Of a DNA stretch of 39,913 bases, positions 6,136 to 18,186 are shown piece by piece (positions within the stretch are counted from its first letter, which is position 1; each line of letters begins with the position of its first letter). The notes beneath the pieces were generated by a model. It searched no databases. It worked only from the letters and a program-made list of their open reading frames with translations, and was not told the origin of the DNA. Both the position numbers and the translations under genes were made by a program. The stretch comes from Candidatus Scalindua sp. (lineage in GTDB: Bacteria; Planctomycetota; Brocadiia; Brocadiales; Scalinduaceae), in contig JAIQZU010000031.1 in NCBI GenBank assembly GCA_021776915.1, forward strand, positions 1 through 39,913, in the 5' to 3' direction.

Positions 6136-6323
6136 TTGAGCCCGCTTGGAGCCCATACCCGTTGGGGATAAAGGGCTCTAGCTCATGCTCAGCGCGCTAG
6201 AAGGCAATTTTGGCCGAATCCAAACGAATTCGAGTCCCGTTGGGGACGCCACAACCTCTTTCTTTTCAAAGGGTTAGAAGGGCGGGCTCCAAGATTGAGC
6301 CCGCTTGGAGCCCCATTGAGCCC
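6136..6323. repeat. GAGCCC repeat cluster around attP (candidate integrase arm sites)
   Basis: A 19-bp direct repeat, TTGAGCCCGCTTGGAGCCC, occurs exactly at 6136-6154 and 6295-6313, one on each side of the attP core. A further inverted copy gives GGGCTCCAAG (6284-6293) against CTTGGAGCCC (6304-6313) and, in competition, GCGGGCTC (6282-6289) against GAGCCCGC (6297-6304). The hexamer GAGCCC or its complement also occurs at 6173-6178 and 6318-6323. Symmetric repeats around a core, next to an integrase gene, fit arm-type binding sites. The 3' copy could also fold as a terminator for int. Confidence 0.6.
6229..6251 (+). other. attP: Probable attP core matching a tRNA-Glu 3' end
   Basis: Read on the plus strand, these bases match the 3' end of a tRNA: T-loop TTCGAGT, T-stem half CCCGT, acceptor half TGGGGAC, discriminator G and CCA. 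The GGGGAC G CCA ending is that of bacterial tRNA-Glu. The 5' T-stem half needed for a complete T-arm is degraded (ACGAA), so this is not a tRNA gene but a captured tRNA end. It lies 79 bases past the integrase stop, the classical attP position. Phage genes flank it on both sides, so the DNA shown is not integrated at this site. Confidence 0.7.
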
Positions 6324-6329
6324 TAACAA

Positions 6330-7595
6330 TCATCGGCGCATGTCCTCGACCCGCTCCCGAGCGAGGTTCAAGTAGACATCTTCCGTCCCTGGGCTCGCAT
6401 GCCCGAGGAAGTTCCGCAGCATCGCGCCGGTTACGCCGGGCAGCATCGCGAGCTCCGTCGCGGCCGAGTGCTTCAGGTGGTAGGGGCTCACGTACTCGAC
6501 CTCCGCGTCGGTGCACGCCGTCTGCCACCGCTCGATGATTGACCAGTGTGACCACCGGCGCGCGCCAACCTTGCCCCGGGGGTTCACGAAGAGCGGCACC
6601 CCCTCGCGTCGTAGGCGTTCCTCGGGTGTGGCTTCAGCGATCCGCTCGTGGATCCAGTCAGCCAGGAGCACATTCGCTCCCACGGTCCGCGTCTGGCGGT
6701 TCTTCGTCGGTCCCCAGCCGGCGGCAGCCTCGGCCCCGTCCATCGAGCGCTCGATGCGTACACGAGCGCGCTTTTCGCCATCGACCTCCCATGTCTTGCA
6801 GTGAACCAGGTCGAGGGGCCGAGCCTCGCACGGTCGGATGGCGTGGTACAGGGCCAGATAGATGCCCTGGTCGGTGCGGGGCATGCCGGTGATGACGGCC
6901 AGCACGTCCTCGGGCTCCATGATCGCGGGCGGCTTCTTCTCCTGCTTCAGCCTCGGGAAGTCGGGCACCGCCCCGATCTTGCCGCGCCGGGCGAACCACT
7001 TCATGCAGCGCTTCAGATCGTCCAGCGCGTGGTTCGCGGTCTTGGCTCCGATCTCGAACTCCTCGCGCAGCCAGAGCGACCACTCCTCGAGCGCGCCATA
7101 GTTCACGGCGTCGATCGACCAGTCGCGCCAGAACGAGAAGTAGCCACCGTCCCGCTTGAGCTTCCGCTTCAGCTCGCGGAAGGTGCGCGGCCGGATGTCG
7201 CCTTCGGCCAGGCGCCGCTCCTCCATGTCGAGGAACAGGTTCATCACGGTCAGGACGCCTCGATCTTCCTTGGCCCGCTCGTCATAGGGAGCGATCGAGC
7301 GCTCCAGATCCTGGGTAGCCGCGAAGGTTGCGCGGATCCGCTTGAGCGCGATGTCCGCGAGCTCGGGCGTCATCGTGACCCAATGGTCACTGCCGACGGG
7401 GAACTTCCCGAGGTAGCGCCGCTCGCCCTGGTACTTGATCACGATCCGGGCCTTCCCGCCCGGTCGCACCTGGATTGCCCCGAGATCCCTCGCCAACAGC
7501 TCACCCTCCAGACTCGTGCCAGTCCGAAGAGAGGGAATCGCTTCTAGGCGGATTTCGCCAATCGGGCGCTCCAGACTGGGGGCGGGGTGGGTCAC
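6330..7595 (-). CDS. int: Tyrosine integrase
   Basis: Start GTG 7595 overlaps the stop of the DUF5131 gene, giving 421 residues. An N-terminal arm-binding-like region (about 1-75) is followed by a core-binding helical domain (about 95-210, with SFWRDWSIDAVNYGALEEW) and the catalytic domain. Catalytic candidates are Arg254 (AIRPCEA), Lys298 (PTKNRQT), the box YHLKHS (372-377), His399 (GHAS) and the nucleophile Tyr408 (EDVYLNL). The box is normally HxLRHS, so the His is Tyr and the second Arg is Lys here. With attP just downstream it should integrate the phage at a host tRNA-Glu gene. Confidence 0.88.
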   Translation of the reverse strand: MTHPAPSLERPIGEIRLEAIPSLRTGTSLEGELLARDLGAIQVRPGGKARIVIKYQGERRYLGKFPVGSDHWVTMTPELADIALKRIRATFAATQDLERSIAPYDERAKEDRGVLTVMNLFLDMEERRLAEGDIRPRTFRELKRKLKRDGGYFSFWRDWSIDAVNYGALEEWSLWLREEFEIGAKTANHALDDLKRCMKWFARRGKIGAVPDFPRLKQEKKPPAIMEPEDVLAVITGMPRTDQGIYLALYHAIRPCEARPLDLVHCKTWEVDGEKRARVRIERSMDGAEAAAGWGPTKNRQTRTVGANVLLADWIHERIAEATPEERLRREGVPLFVNPRGKVGARRWSHWSIIERWQTACTDAEVEYVSPYHLKHSAATELAMLPGVTGAMLRNFLGHASPGTEDVYLNLARERVEDMRR

Positions 7596-8638
7596 GCCGG
7601 GAACTCCTGGACGCGGAGATCCTCGGGCCACCCATGAGGGTCGGCGCCTTTCGAGTCGATCGGACGCATCTCGCCAACGTCGCTCTCTTCTGAAATGCCG
7701 GTCCATGCGTCGGTGAGGCTGATCGACTGCCAGTCCTTGAACTCGATCAGGGGCCTCTTCCCAAGCTGCTTCACGAATACCGGGACATCCGCCTCCCCGC
7801 ACTGCTCCACGATGGATCGGATCCACTCGACATTGCAGGGGCGGGCGCCTGGTCCTGATTCGCCTCCGACGATTATCCAATCGATGGACTCCAGGGCCTC
7901 GGTCATCGTTTCGTGTTCGCAGAGGCGGCACTGCCATGCATTGGTGTCGGGCTCGTGGTAGCCATCTTCATGCCGGCACCCGACAGCTTCCACCAGATCG
8001 AGCGGCCCGAGCAACGGCTCACAGCTCAGGAATCGCACAGCCGCAGGAGTCTGGAGCAGGAGAGGGATCCTCTCGTCTGCTCGCTTCTGGTCTTCAACGC
8101 TCACGCCTAGGTGGACGTTGGGGAGGGTCAGGTTCTCCTGGATGCCACCCCACCATGCGTCGAAGCCCATCATTGCGCCCGGACTCGGATTCTCGCGCCG
8201 CTCGATGATGTACTCGCACATCGCTCCGACCTTGAGCATCCACCACTCCTCGTTTCCAAGTAGCGAGCGCATACGCTCCGGTCTCTTTGTGAGCACCTGG
8301 AATGTGTGCTGCTCGGCCAAGGCCATCGTGGTGAACACGTCAGCGATGAACTCGTCCGGCACGCGCTCATGGAACAGGTCGCTCATCGAGTTGACGAAGA
8401 TCCTGCGGGGCTTCCGCCAACGAAGCGGTGCCTCTAAGCGATTCGGCAAGCATCGAACCTCTCCGTTCCACCGGGGCCCCTTGTCCCCCGCGGTCGTCAA
8501 TCCTTCGTGAGCAGGCTGCATTGCTCGATGGGCAACGCGCTCCGCATAGCAGTGCTCACAGCCAGGGGAGACCCGAGAGCATCCGACCGTGGGATTCCAG
8601 GTTGCGTCCGTCCAGGAAATGCCGGTCTTGCCGCCCAT
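7592..8638 (-). CDS. DUF5131 (phage Gp37/Gp68, three-Cys-motif) protein
   Basis: ATG 8638 shares its A with the upstream TGA; the product is 348 residues. The N-terminus (GISWTDATWNP) and Cys20, Cys27 and Cys30 in the pattern CxxxxxxCxxC followed by YAE are diagnostic of PF07505. RIFVNSMSDLFH, LTKRPERM, VHLGVSVEDQ, FLSCEPLLGPL and WIIVGGESGPGARP follow in family order. A likely lineage-specific insert carries extra Cys/His (CRHEDGYHE and CRLCEHE), possibly zinc-binding. The three-Cys cluster resembles that of radical-SAM barrel proteins; the reaction is unknown. It precedes int and follows a LexA-type regulator. Confidence 0.85.
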   Translation of the reverse strand: MGGKTGISWTDATWNPTVGCSRVSPGCEHCYAERVAHRAMQPAHEGLTTAGDKGPRWNGEVRCLPNRLEAPLRWRKPRRIFVNSMSDLFHERVPDEFIADVFTTMALAEQHTFQVLTKRPERMRSLLGNEEWWMLKVGAMCEYIIERRENPSPGAMMGFDAWWGGIQENLTLPNVHLGVSVEDQKRADERIPLLLQTPAAVRFLSCEPLLGPLDLVEAVGCRHEDGYHEPDTNAWQCRLCEHETMTEALESIDWIIVGGESGPGARPCNVEWIRSIVEQCGEADVPVFVKQLGKRPLIEFKDWQSISLTDAWTGISEESDVGEMRPIDSKGADPHGWPEDLRVQEFPA

Positions 8639-9012
8639 CACGCCACCCCAAGGGCCGAGCGGAACCGCTTCAGATCTTCCGGCATCGGGAGCCGATTGAG
8701 CCTCAGGGATTCTGCGATCGGCAGCGAGGCCTCTCGTAGTTCGCGAAGTTGATCCACCACCGAGCAATCCCGGAGCGCAATTCCCCGCGGAGCGTTTCGG
8801 AGCTTCGCCACGTGCCCTTTCTTGGCCAGCTGCATCACGAGGCCATGCGCTGTCGAGGTCGAGACTCCGCCCAAGTGCTCTGCGATCTCATCGTTCGTCG
8901 GCGCGTAGCCCTTCGCCTTCCACATCCTCTCGATGAAAGTGAGCACTTTCCTCTGGCCGGGAGTCAGAGGGGCCGGCACGCCGGCTGCGAATCCAGAGTG
9001 GACTTCGCCCAT
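8638..9012 (-). CDS. LexA-type winged-helix DNA-binding protein without protease domain
   Basis: ATG 9012 overlaps the upstream TGA (TGATG), giving 124 residues. The segment LTPGQRKVLTFIERMWKAKG, then YAPTNDEIAEHLG, STSTAHGLVMQLAKKGHV and RGIALRD reproduces the LexA N-terminal domain (PF01726). The Ser/Lys autoprotease domain of LexA is missing; the C-terminal 45 residues are a short helical tail. It may compete for SOS-type sites or regulate phage genes. The target is unknown. Confidence 0.75.
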   Translation of the reverse strand: MGEVHSGFAAGVPAPLTPGQRKVLTFIERMWKAKGYAPTNDEIAEHLGGVSTSTAHGLVMQLAKKGHVAKLRNAPRGIALRDCSVVDQLRELREASLPIAESLRLNRLPMPEDLKRFRSALGVA

Positions 9013-9137
9013 CACTTCTCTCCGTGCACGGGAAGGCACCGCTCACACCAGGGCCGGCCGTTGATGACGCGATAGATCTGCTTCTCCAAGGGCCGCACGT
9101 CTTCCTTGCACTGCGAGCAGACAACGAGAACAACCAT
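9012..9137 (-). CDS. Zinc-ribbon miniprotein, 41 aa
   Basis: ATG 9137 to TGA 9012, with TGATG overlaps at both ends. The product has Cys7-x2-Cys10 (VCSQCKED) and Cys31-x2-Cys34 (WCERCLP), a two-knuckle zinc ribbon, separated by PLEKQIYRVINGRP. GGAGG lies about 9 bases upstream. Small zinc ribbons of this kind act as nucleic-acid or protein adaptors. It sits between the coiled-coil protein and the LexA-type regulator. Confidence 0.65.
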   Translation of the reverse strand: MVVLVVCSQCKEDVRPLEKQIYRVINGRPWCERCLPVHGEK

Positions 9138-10114: not shown

Positions 10115-10254
10115 GAGCGCCACCGCCGGGAGATCGCGTACTCGCGCGCCACGAGAGATCCCACCATCAGAATCGGAACCACTATTCCGATGGCCATGTA
10201 CCAGTCGCTAGGAGATGCGCCCCAATCGATTCGCGTGAGGATGTCCCAGCTCAT
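10111..10254 (-). CDS. Small single-pass membrane protein, 47 aa
   Basis: ATG 10254 overlaps the upstream TGA (ATGA). Residues about 18-36 (DWYMAIGIVVPILMVGSLV) form one membrane helix, followed by a basic tail (AREYAISRRWRS) that predicts N-out, C-in. It lies second in the leftward operon, where lambdoid phages often carry small accessory proteins. No family recognised. Confidence 0.6.
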   Translation of the reverse strand: MSWDILTRIDWGASPSDWYMAIGIVVPILMVGSLVAREYAISRRWRS

Positions 10255-10520
10255 GCTGCAAGCTCATCGAGGTGAGCTGCATCTTCACAGAGACGATCCG
10301 CTGCACTCCTTGCCTGGAAGAGAGGGGCACCGTTCCGGGTGATCCCTGTTCTCACCAGCAGATTGATCTGCTTCAGCTGGCTGATGGCCCGGGATGCGTT
10401 CGTGAGACGGAAGCGCCTGCCAAGTTCGAGTATCTGCCTGTCTGTCTGGGGCTTCGCTTGAAGCTCGACCAGGGCCAGCAATTCGCCGGCGGGGTAGGGG
10501 AGTTGAATGGTCTGGTGCAT
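10251..10520 (-). CDS. Small winged-helix protein, first gene of leftward operon, 89 aa
   Basis: I choose ATG 10520 with AGGAG about 9 bases upstream; the longer frame would read through the promoter and operator. The product (MHQTIQLPYPAGELLALVEL..., then QILELGRRFRLTNASRAISQ, LKQINLLVRTG) looks like a winged helix: helix, helix-turn-helix, then a wing with LLVRTGITRNG. It is the first gene downstream of operators 1 and 2, so its expression should be repressor-controlled. Confidence 0.6.
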   Translation of the reverse strand: MHQTIQLPYPAGELLALVELQAKPQTDRQILELGRRFRLTNASRAISQLKQINLLVRTGITRNGAPLFQARSAADRLCEDAAHLDELAA

Positions 10521-10535
10521 CGGACGGGCTCCTAG

Positions 10536-10552
10536 GTTCGGGGAAAGTGAAC
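10536..10552. promoter_or_regulatory. Immunity operator 1
   Basis: GTTCGGGGAAAGTGAAC, an imperfect 17-bp palindrome with GTTC and GAAC ends. It overlaps the edge of a possible leftward -10 (TATGGT, minus strand, 10556-10551) at the head of the leftward operon. Three further copies flank the repressor gene. Confidence 0.7.
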
Positions 10553-10581
10553 CATACGGAGCGCGAACTCGCAAGCCTAAT

Positions 10582-10598
10582 GTTCGGGGAGCCCGAAC
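10582..10598. promoter_or_regulatory. Immunity operator 2
   Basis: GTTCGGGGAGCCCGAAC has perfect 7-bp arms (GTTCGGG and CCCGAAC) around GAG. It is the most symmetric of the four copies and lies 29 bases from operator 1, just upstream of where a -35 for the leftward promoter would lie. Confidence 0.7.
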
Positions 10599-10637
10599 TG
10601 TGGAGAGAATGCCTAGGCTACGCGGTGCCTTGGGCTC

Positions 10638-11066
10638 TTAGCTGCCGGTCGAGCGCTTGGAGCCGGGATTCTTGGAACGGAGGCGCCCTAAGTCGACTGT
10701 GTCGTGTGCGCCGTGAATGGCCGCTTTCGCCTCAGCCTTTCCGAGCTCAGCGAGCCATCGGATCTCAGCGGCGCCGATGGTATCGACCAAAGCGGCTGCC
10801 AGGCGGTCGACGTCTTTGTGTTTCGCCAGCAGGCGCTCCTCAAGCACCTTGGAGACGGGAGCGTCAATAGCCTCACAGAAAGCAAGGAAGAGGGGGAGAC
10901 TGAAGTTCCCGGTTCCCGACTCTGCGCCACTGATATGGCCCTTCGAGCAACCGATCGCGTCTGCGACCTCCTGCTGGGTCAGCTCCGCGACCTGGCGCCA
11001 CTTCCGCATCTGGCGCCCGACGTGCTTCGGGACATTCTGGGTCTTTTTTGACTTCTTGGCCGTCAT
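10638..11066 (-). CDS. XRE-family repressor (CI-type), 142 aa
   Basis: Start ATG 11066 is supported by GGGGGA just upstream; the in-frame upstream ATG abuts operator 3 and lacks a binding site. A helix-turn-helix of the XRE type spans about residues 17-75: VGRQMRKWRQVAELTQQEVA, then DAIGCSKGHISGAESG and FSLPLFLAFCEAIDAP. The C-terminal half is helical and Ala/Lys-rich with no LexA-type peptidase, so induction is not by standard RecA-driven self-cleavage. It is bracketed by pairs of operators, which makes it the likely immunity repressor. Confidence 0.8.
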   Translation of the reverse strand: MTAKKSKKTQNVPKHVGRQMRKWRQVAELTQQEVADAIGCSKGHISGAESGTGNFSLPLFLAFCEAIDAPVSKVLEERLLAKHKDVDRLAAALVDTIGAAEIRWLAELGKAEAKAAIHGAHDTVDLGRLRSKNPGSKRSTGS

Positions 11067-11111
11067 CGTTCCCCCGCAGGAACCACACAGCATCTCTTGG
11101 GGATGTGCCAC

Positions 11112-11128
11112 GTTTGGGGAAAGTGAAC
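11112..11128. promoter_or_regulatory. Immunity operator 3
   Basis: GTTTGGGGAAAGTGAAC differs from operator 1 at one position. It lies 46 bases upstream of the repressor start, where it could give autoregulation, and upstream of the -35 of the rightward promoter. Confidence 0.7.
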
Positions 11129-11136
11129 GTATTCCC

Positions 11137-11164
11137 TTGACGTCGGAGTGGTTCGAAGTTTAGT
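11137..11164 (+). promoter_or_regulatory. Rightward promoter for the Cro-like gene
   Basis: -35 TTGACG (11137-11142), a 16-base spacer and -10 TTTAGT (11159-11164). Operator 4 covers the -10. The predicted start of transcription is near 11171, so the mRNA would begin only a few bases before the cro ATG at 11176. Confidence 0.5.
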
Positions 11165-11174
11165 TTCCCCGAAC
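11158..11174. promoter_or_regulatory. Immunity operator 4
   Basis: In reverse orientation this is GTTCGGGGAAACTAAAC, two differences from operator 1. It spans from the rightward -10 to one base before the Cro-like ATG, so bound protein would block RNA polymerase directly. Confidence 0.7.
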
Positions 11175-11175
11175 C

Positions 11176-11418
11176 ATGACGGCGCAAGTTCTAAAGCCTG
11201 AGACGCATCCTCTTGTCCGATACGGGGAGCGCCGTGGGTGGTCTCGTCAGCAGACGGCGGACTTCTTCGAGGTTCCCTTCAGCACGTTCAAGCAACTCGT
11301 GAGTGGACACACGGGCGCCTCCTTCACCCGGGCCGAGGGCTGGGAAACCCGCACGGGAGGAGAGGTGCTCGCAGTCGAGGTGATGCGCTGGCAACAGCGT
11401 AATAGGAAGGCGGCATGA
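11176..11418 (+). CDS. Cro-like helix-turn-helix protein, 80 aa
   Basis: First gene of the rightward transcript, divergent from the repressor. Residues 12-45 (PLVRYGERRGWSRQQTADFF, then EVPFSTFKQLVSG) form a helix-turn-helix, and HTGASFTRAEGWETRTGGEV follows, reminiscent of Cro/YdaS-type proteins. There is no Shine-Dalgarno before ATG 11176 and the predicted transcript start is about five bases upstream, so it is probably translated from a leaderless mRNA. It should compete with the repressor for the four operators. Confidence 0.65.
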   Translation: MTAQVLKPETHPLVRYGERRGWSRQQTADFFEVPFSTFKQLVSGHTGASFTRAEGWETRTGGEVLAVEVMRWQQRNRKAA

Positions 11419-13451: not shown

Positions 13452-13888
13452 CGAACCACTGCCCCCACCCCCAGGAAAAGCGCGAGGTCCGTCGCTTCAA
13501 GAAAGGCGAGGGGAGCGTCTTCGCCTTCCAGTGCTTGGATTGCTTCCAGAAGATCGGCAGAAATATCCGTCCCGATGATCTCCCCGGAGGCATGCACCCG
13601 AAGGACGTTCCCTGGAAGAGCATCAGGCCGCAGTTCAGCGGACCAGGGAACTCGAAGCGCAGGGAATTCAAGGCCTACCTCGGCAGTGCTGCATGGAAGA
13701 AGCTCCGCGAGAAGGTTCTCCATCGCGACAACTTCACGTGCCAGGACTGCGGCGATCCAGCCACCGACGCCGGCCACATCACCTACGAGCGATTCGGGAA
13801 CGAGCTCCTCTCCGACCTGAAGGCCCAATGCTTCGACTGCAATCAGGCCGAGAGGGAGCAGCGGATCTCGGGAGGGCATGCGGCATGA
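13448..13888 (+). CDS. HNH endonuclease, 146 aa
   Basis: ATG 13448 overlaps the CII-like stop (ATGA). An N-terminal Cys pair (FQCLDCFQ) is followed by the HNH core: WKKLREKVLHRDNFTCQDCG, AGHITYERFG as the first H, and LKAQCFDCNQ as the N and zinc-binding half. Four Cys should bind structural zinc around the beta-beta-alpha-metal fold. In this operon position it may be a recombination or replication-associated nicking enzyme, or a homing nuclease that became fixed. Confidence 0.8.
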   Translation: MTNHCPHPQEKREVRRFKKGEGSVFAFQCLDCFQKIGRNIRPDDLPGGMHPKDVPWKSIRPQFSGPGNSKRREFKAYLGSAAWKKLREKVLHRDNFTCQDCGDPATDAGHITYERFGNELLSDLKAQCFDCNQAEREQRISGGHAA

Positions 13889-14091
13889 ACGCTCTCCTGA
13901 CGCTTCGCGAACGCAGGGGCTGGACTCAGGAGGAGCTGGCGGAGAAGTCGAGCGTAAGTGCACGAACCATCGGCATGCTCGAGAACGGCCAGTCCAAGCC
14001 ACACATGCCAACCCGTCGTCGCCTACTCCAGGCACTTGGTTTCCCGGTCCGAGATCACCGCATGGTGTTCGGGCCGATCAGAAAGGGGTGA
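13885..14091 (+). CDS. XRE-family helix-turn-helix protein, 68 aa
   Basis: ATG 13885 overlaps the HNH stop. The product is almost entirely one XRE domain: ALLTLRERRGWTQEELAEKS, SVSARTIGMLENGQSKPH, then TRRRLLQALGF. A small regulator acting on nearby palindromes (for example TACCCCAAATGGGGTA) is possible but not shown. Confidence 0.75.
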   Translation: MNALLTLRERRGWTQEELAEKSSVSARTIGMLENGQSKPHMPTRRRLLQALGFPVRDHRMVFGPIRKG

Positions 14092-17164: not shown

Positions 17165-18186
17165 CCGCCGCATCTATGGTGCCGGAAAAGGACATTGTAA
17201 GGACCATGGGAAGTCAGCGGAAACCGAAGCAGGAACAGGCGGTTTGCGACTTCGCGCCGTACGACTACCCGCCGAGGTCCGGCCCGTTCGGAATCTGTCT
17301 CTCGCAGTACCGACCAGGTGCTTCGCGAAAGAGCGTGACGATCAGCCTTCGGCGAATCGCCCGGATTGCCTCGGCAGGGGAGGTGCCAGCCGAGAAGTTC
17401 GCCTGGCACCGGCTCCGCTTCGAGCACGTCGCTCGGATCCGTGAGCGTCTCGAGGGCGGCTACGCGCCGTCAACCCAGAACCACACGCTCTCGTGTCTCC
17501 GATCGATCATCCGAACGTGCTGGAGGTTGGAGCTGATCTCTGGCGAGGACCGAGAGCGGCTTTCCGACGTGAGGGGCTTCAGGGAGTCTGGCCAGCTGCG
17601 TGGCCGCGCGCTCAGTCACGCCGAGCTCGAGCGCCTGTTCGCGGCCCTGGCCAGCGGAGGCGACTCCACCCGCGTAAAGCGCGACGGCGCGCTCCTTTCG
17701 GTCCTCTTCGCCGCGGGGCTTCGACGGCAAGAGGCCATCAGCCTCTCCCTGCGTGACTACGACCCCAAGATCGGGACGCTCGCGGTAGCGGGGAAGGGCG
17801 GCAGGGCTCGCACGGGCTACCTACAAGCCGGCCCCCGGAAAGCCTTGGACTCCTGGGTCCGCGCTCGTGGCCGCAAAGCCGGCCCGCTGTTCTGCACGGT
17901 CCTCCGGTCCGGAAAAGTGGAGCCGCAACCAATGAGCCCGCGAGCCGTCTACAAGCTCTGCCATGCGTGGGCGAAGAAGGCCAAGATCCCAGCCTTCGCG
18001 CCACACGATCTCCGCCGCACCTTCGTCACGCATCTCCTGGATGCCGGCGTCGATCTCGGCACCGCCCAGGCGCTGGCCGGCCATGCGCTCGTGAAGACCA
18101 CAATTCTCTACGACCGGCGCGGTGAGAGCGCGAAACAGGCCGCCAGCCTGCGGTTGGCCTTTCCCGAAATCCACGCGAGGAGGTGA
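17161..18186 (+). CDS. Second tyrosine recombinase (XerC/D-like), 341 aa
   Basis: GTG 17161 overlaps the previous stop; ATG 17176 and ATG 17206 are alternatives. An N-terminal core-binding domain (about 70-150) precedes the catalytic domain with Arg188 (GLRRQEA), Lys212 (AGKGGRA), His282-x-x-Arg285 (HDLRRT), His308 (GHAL) and nucleophile Tyr317 (ILYDRRG). All six catalytic positions are intact, unlike the integrase on the other strand. It lies between replication genes and an excisionase-like gene, so dimer resolution, copy control or a second integration reaction are possible roles. Confidence 0.85.
   Translation: MTAASMVPEKDIVRTMGSQRKPKQEQAVCDFAPYDYPPRSGPFGICLSQYRPGASRKSVTISLRRIARIASAGEVPAEKFAWHRLRFEHVARIRERLEGGYAPSTQNHTLSCLRSIIRTCWRLELISGEDRERLSDVRGFRESGQLRGRALSHAELERLFAALASGGDSTRVKRDGALLSVLFAAGLRRQEAISLSLRDYDPKIGTLAVAGKGGRARTGYLQAGPRKALDSWVRARGRKAGPLFCTVLRSGKVEPQPMSPRAVYKLCHAWAKKAKIPAFAPHDLRRTFVTHLLDAGVDLGTAQALAGHALVKTTILYDRRGESAKQAASLRLAFPEIHARR

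Follow-up and report, generated by a model that had tools for sequence, protein, structure and literature searches.

The window analyzed here, 39,913 bases in length, represents an entire contig (C25) of a 3.8-Mb assembly and displays the gene content of a myovirus, including integrases, a C5-cytosine methylase, replication protein O, a gpA terminase, a lambda-type portal, capsid E, a tail sheath, and a Mu gp45-like protein. Within it, an XRE/HTH repressor of 142 aa is encoded at 10638-11066 (minus strand; HTH_31/HTH_3), its gene flanked by two short non-coding gaps of 117 bp (10521-10637) and 109 bp (11067-11175). Beyond the first gap lies the first gene of a leftward operon (10251-10520, minus strand), which encodes an 89-aa protein with no assigned function and has an AGGAG preceding its ATG, while the second gap is followed by the first rightward gene (11176-11418, plus strand), encoding an 80-aa orphan protein presumed from its position to be Cro- or Mor-like. 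The leftward operon also includes a DUF5131 protein (7592-8647, minus strand; 2.1e-84; PHROG 2045, of unknown function) and a protein of 133 aa that has a LexA DNA-binding domain (8638-9039, minus strand; Pfam, 2.1e-14) but lacks a peptidase domain and may recognize host SOS boxes or have a part in induction. Elsewhere in the window, two different tyrosine recombinases are encoded at 6333-7550 (minus strand) and 17233-18183 (plus strand), the latter a XerC/D-like Phage_integrase match (1.1e-25). An exact 17-bp direct repeat, TGAGCCCGCTTGGAGCC, occurs at 6137-6153 and 6296-6312 in the gap adjoining the integrase gene; part of it recurs in inverted orientation at ~6281, and these repeats are possible attachment-site arm sequences.

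The two gaps flanking the repressor gene contain four related 17-bp palindromes, which we designate as operators: L1 (10536-10552, plus strand; GTTCGGGGAAAGTGAAC), L2 (10582-10598, plus strand; GTTCGGGGAGCCCGAAC, a nearly perfect palindrome), R2 (11112-11128, plus strand; GTTTGGGGAAAGTGAAC), and R1 (11158-11174, minus strand; GTTCGGGGAAACTAAAC). The initial annotation had reported these four 17-mers with 0, 4, 1, and 2 differences relative to the one at 10536, and both the positions and the differences were confirmed. The outer GTTC/GAAC is retained in 6 of the 8 half-sites, the other two reading GTTT/AAAC, and the looser pattern GTTY-N9-RAAC has six matches in the window, the four operator sites among them. 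When up to one mismatch was allowed, GTTCGGGGANNNNGAAC matched only the four sites across the 39,913 bases, for an expected count of 0.11, and no shuffle reached four matches. We also applied a motif-independent scan, in which each 17-mer of the window was scored against the three most similar non-overlapping 17-mers found within 700 bp. The 17-mer at 10536 ranked at the top of the window with a summed distance of 7, compared to best values of 9 to 11 across 25 simulated windows, which preserved base-step composition only. This simulation is modest in its number of runs (n = 25), but the placement of the sites in two short gaps by one gene provides independent support. No other local repeat family in the window is as tight as these four sites, which are not a product of chance.

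Start-to-start spacing is exactly 46 bp in both pairs, with 29 bp separating the sites, a feature absent from the initial annotation. Read as transcribed, the right pair is GTTTGGGGAAAGTGAAC-N29-GTTTAGTTTCCCCGAAC and the left pair GTTCGGGCTCCCCGAAC-N29-GTTCACTTTCCCCGAAC, and a pattern built for the operator pair matched these two places only in the window. One pair heads the leftward operon and the other occupies the divergent gap, i.e., a shared operator family flanks the repressor gene as the initial annotation had it, with L2 just 3′ of the repressor stop codon. A predicted rightward promoter, pR, is found at 11137-11164 (plus strand; TTGACG-16-TTTAGT, 9/12, sigma-70-like), its −10 element falling inside operator R1 and its −35 element downstream of R2. 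Since only six 9/12 placements were detected across both strands of the whole window (~0.15 per kb), a correctly oriented one in the 109-bp gap is unlikely to arise by chance. From this placement, transcription of the 80-aa gene likely starts ~4-5 nt ahead of its ATG, and the message would then be nearly leaderless. The predicted leftward promoter, pL (10546-10574, minus strand; TTGCGA-17-TTCACT), is a weak match (7/12) with the same geometry relative to the operators: L1 overlaps its −10, L2 lies upstream of its −35, and the operator overlapping the −10 has an identical orientation in the left and right pairs. None of these promoters was picked up by a stricter standard scan that demands A at the second −10 position, and no recognizable candidate was detected for the repressor gene's own promoter. 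The earlier description of a complete two-promoter switch was therefore overstated: pR is a good match, pL is weak, and the repressor promoter is not recognizable.

For the repressor itself, Pfam identified only the HTH domain (HTH_31, 6.8e-10) and no S24 peptidase in its 142 aa, in agreement with the original view of a repressor lacking a self-cleavage domain. Such non-cleaved repressors are well known, for instance in TP901-1 and N15, and the missing domain is not unusual (PMC10432266, PMC11149083). A motif-level search for an ImmA-like HExxH protease gave five HExxH motifs in open frames of the window, of which the one in the leftward operon runs antisense to the operon. The best PHROG match of the repressor was PHROG 1373 (transcriptional regulator), and the nearest solved structures by sequence were ClgR and the controller protein C.BclI; its own structure model (pLDDT 41) was of no use. 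Searches with the 80-aa rightward protein against Pfam (above cut-off), PHROGs, and NCBIfam assigned it to no family, and the phage and viral-contig collections gave no homologue. Two matches in genome contigs were rejected as chance, the one inspected (L093) falling inside a 369-aa open reading frame that we interpret as peptide chain release factor 2. A single-sequence model of the protein was all-helical at low confidence (pLDDT 66), with a possible HTH at residues 24-46 formed by helices 24-32 and 35-46, and a fold search with this model returned nothing significant. Without a family, homologue, or fold match, the label "Cro-like" initially given to this protein is a guess from its position. 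A second small XRE-type HTH protein (13885-14091, plus strand; HTH_3, 7.2e-13) is encoded in the rightward early region and represents an alternative Cro candidate.

Taken together, the HTH repressor and the four palindromes suggest, with a probability of about 0.82, that this locus serves as the immunity region of a temperate myovirus with a switch of the CI/Cro or CI/Mor type. The repressor would most likely bind the four 17-bp palindromes as a dimer. The inner operator of each gap lies over the predicted −10, and at the rightward promoter over the predicted start point as well, while the outer operator lies 46 bp away; bound repressor would thereby silence the leftward as well as the rightward early operon, provided that these promoters are the ones used. 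The 80-aa product would probably counteract the repressor, either through the same operators as Cro does or by acting on the repressor itself as Mor does. This last version, in which the operators are bound by the repressor alone, with the 80-aa protein as a Mor-like antirepressor that binds the repressor as in TP901-1, is a serious possibility, albeit one we would hold only tentatively. It fits a peptidase-less repressor divergent from a small orphan gene, the arrangement seen in TP901-1 (PMC11149083), and a protein that matches no recognized DNA-binding family. However, the two paired operator sets differ from the OR, OL, and OD of TP901-1, and the possible HTH in the low-confidence model of the 80-aa protein fits Cro or Mor alike.

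Other readings of the same sites appear less probable. The phage encodes two further proteins with clear DNA-binding domains, the LexA-type protein at 8638-9039 and the XRE protein at 13885-14091, either of which might bind the palindromes instead of, or in addition to, the repressor. We consider this unlikely, as the sites hug the repressor gene and are absent near both other genes, and as GTTC-N9-GAAC matches none of the LexA box forms tested. It is more improbable still that the palindromes are RNA-level elements, such as terminator or attenuator hairpins, or mere chance repeats. Although L2 is a near-perfect inverted repeat just after the repressor stop codon, none of the four positions showed a terminator-like site with a T run, and Rfam gave no match. 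The equal 46-bp spacing in both pairs and the presence of a −10 element inside the inner site also argue against this reading, and the repeat strength exceeds that of all simulated windows. At the other extreme, the locus might represent a symmetric four-operator switch with two identical 46-bp pairs, combining a non-cleavable repressor with an orphan antagonist that founds a new family, and perhaps linked to host DNA damage via the leftward-operon protein with only a LexA DNA-binding domain, an idea we regard as doubtful. Within the preferred reading of a CI/Cro- or CI/Mor-type immunity region, this is a real operator set in an ordinary kind of switch, arranged as is customary for those that maintain dormancy in a temperate virus, with a new sequence and spacing but a well-known kind of control.

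The phage and its operators stand apart in the collections searched. No phage record matched the window phage at the DNA level, and its terminase was ≤44% identical to any viral contig found. Repressor relatives were absent from the phage and plasmid collections and limited to four viral contigs (40-53% identity across 36-43 HTH residues), none of which carried the operators. The initial annotation's proposal to look for the same operator in related phages yielded no carrier among phage, plasmid, and viral-contig collections: scans of viral contigs returned seven single-site matches and one pair match, all isolated and compatible with chance. The phage contig has a G+C content of 64%, whereas ten contigs sampled from its assembly range over 37-43% and correlate negatively with the window in tetranucleotide composition. 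Because a prophage this unlike its host would be very unusual, the phage contig was probably mis-binned. The host-genome scan proposed in the initial annotation could thus be run only on an assembly that is compositionally foreign to the phage; it showed no excess of the operator over a reversed control, a result that does not bear on the real host. A two-mismatch copy (C24:29716) was considered chance, given its A+T-rich contig and the single match likewise obtained with the reversed control pattern. The analysis thus provides a compact operator sequence for a temperate myovirus without close relatives in the searched collections, and with it a handle for finding related prophages and the true host, while the understanding of phage switches is unchanged by this operator set.

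In lambda, operators are 17-bp quasi-palindromes of odd symmetry, one of which covers the −10 region. The sites in the window are likewise 17-bp, quasi-palindromic, and of odd symmetry, with an operator over the predicted −10 region, and here too the repressor gene lies between operator sets for the leftward and rightward early operons, such that repeated operators are present at both early promoter regions flanking it. Lambda, however, has three operators per set about 20-25 bp apart, instead of two per set 46 bp apart, and its CI would be expected to carry a C-terminal S24 self-cleavage domain that the 142-aa repressor lacks, while the rightward 80-aa protein is not recognizable as Cro. The phage-plasmid N15 also has a repressor that is not cleaved on DNA damage, and its induction requires an antirepressor or a peptidase encoded elsewhere (PMC10432266); no antirepressor was identified in the window. 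In TP901-1, CI is an HTH repressor with neither a peptidase domain nor an autocleavage site that binds palindromic operators, and Mor, the small product of the divergent gene, opposes it mainly by binding CI (PMC11149083). The window similarly combines a peptidase-less HTH repressor, palindromic operators, and a small divergent gene, whereas the three operators OR, OL, and OD of TP901-1 are replaced by four, arranged as two equal pairs that flank the repressor gene. Phage phi13 shares the TP901-1-like layout with three CI-bound operators, but its CI has a peptidase domain (PMC8516035), and no sequence relationship was shown between the window and either TP901-1 or phi13. TP901-1 is the closest system in logic, and the operator sets on either side of the repressor gene are lambda-like; in its equal 46-bp pairs the switch differs in detail.
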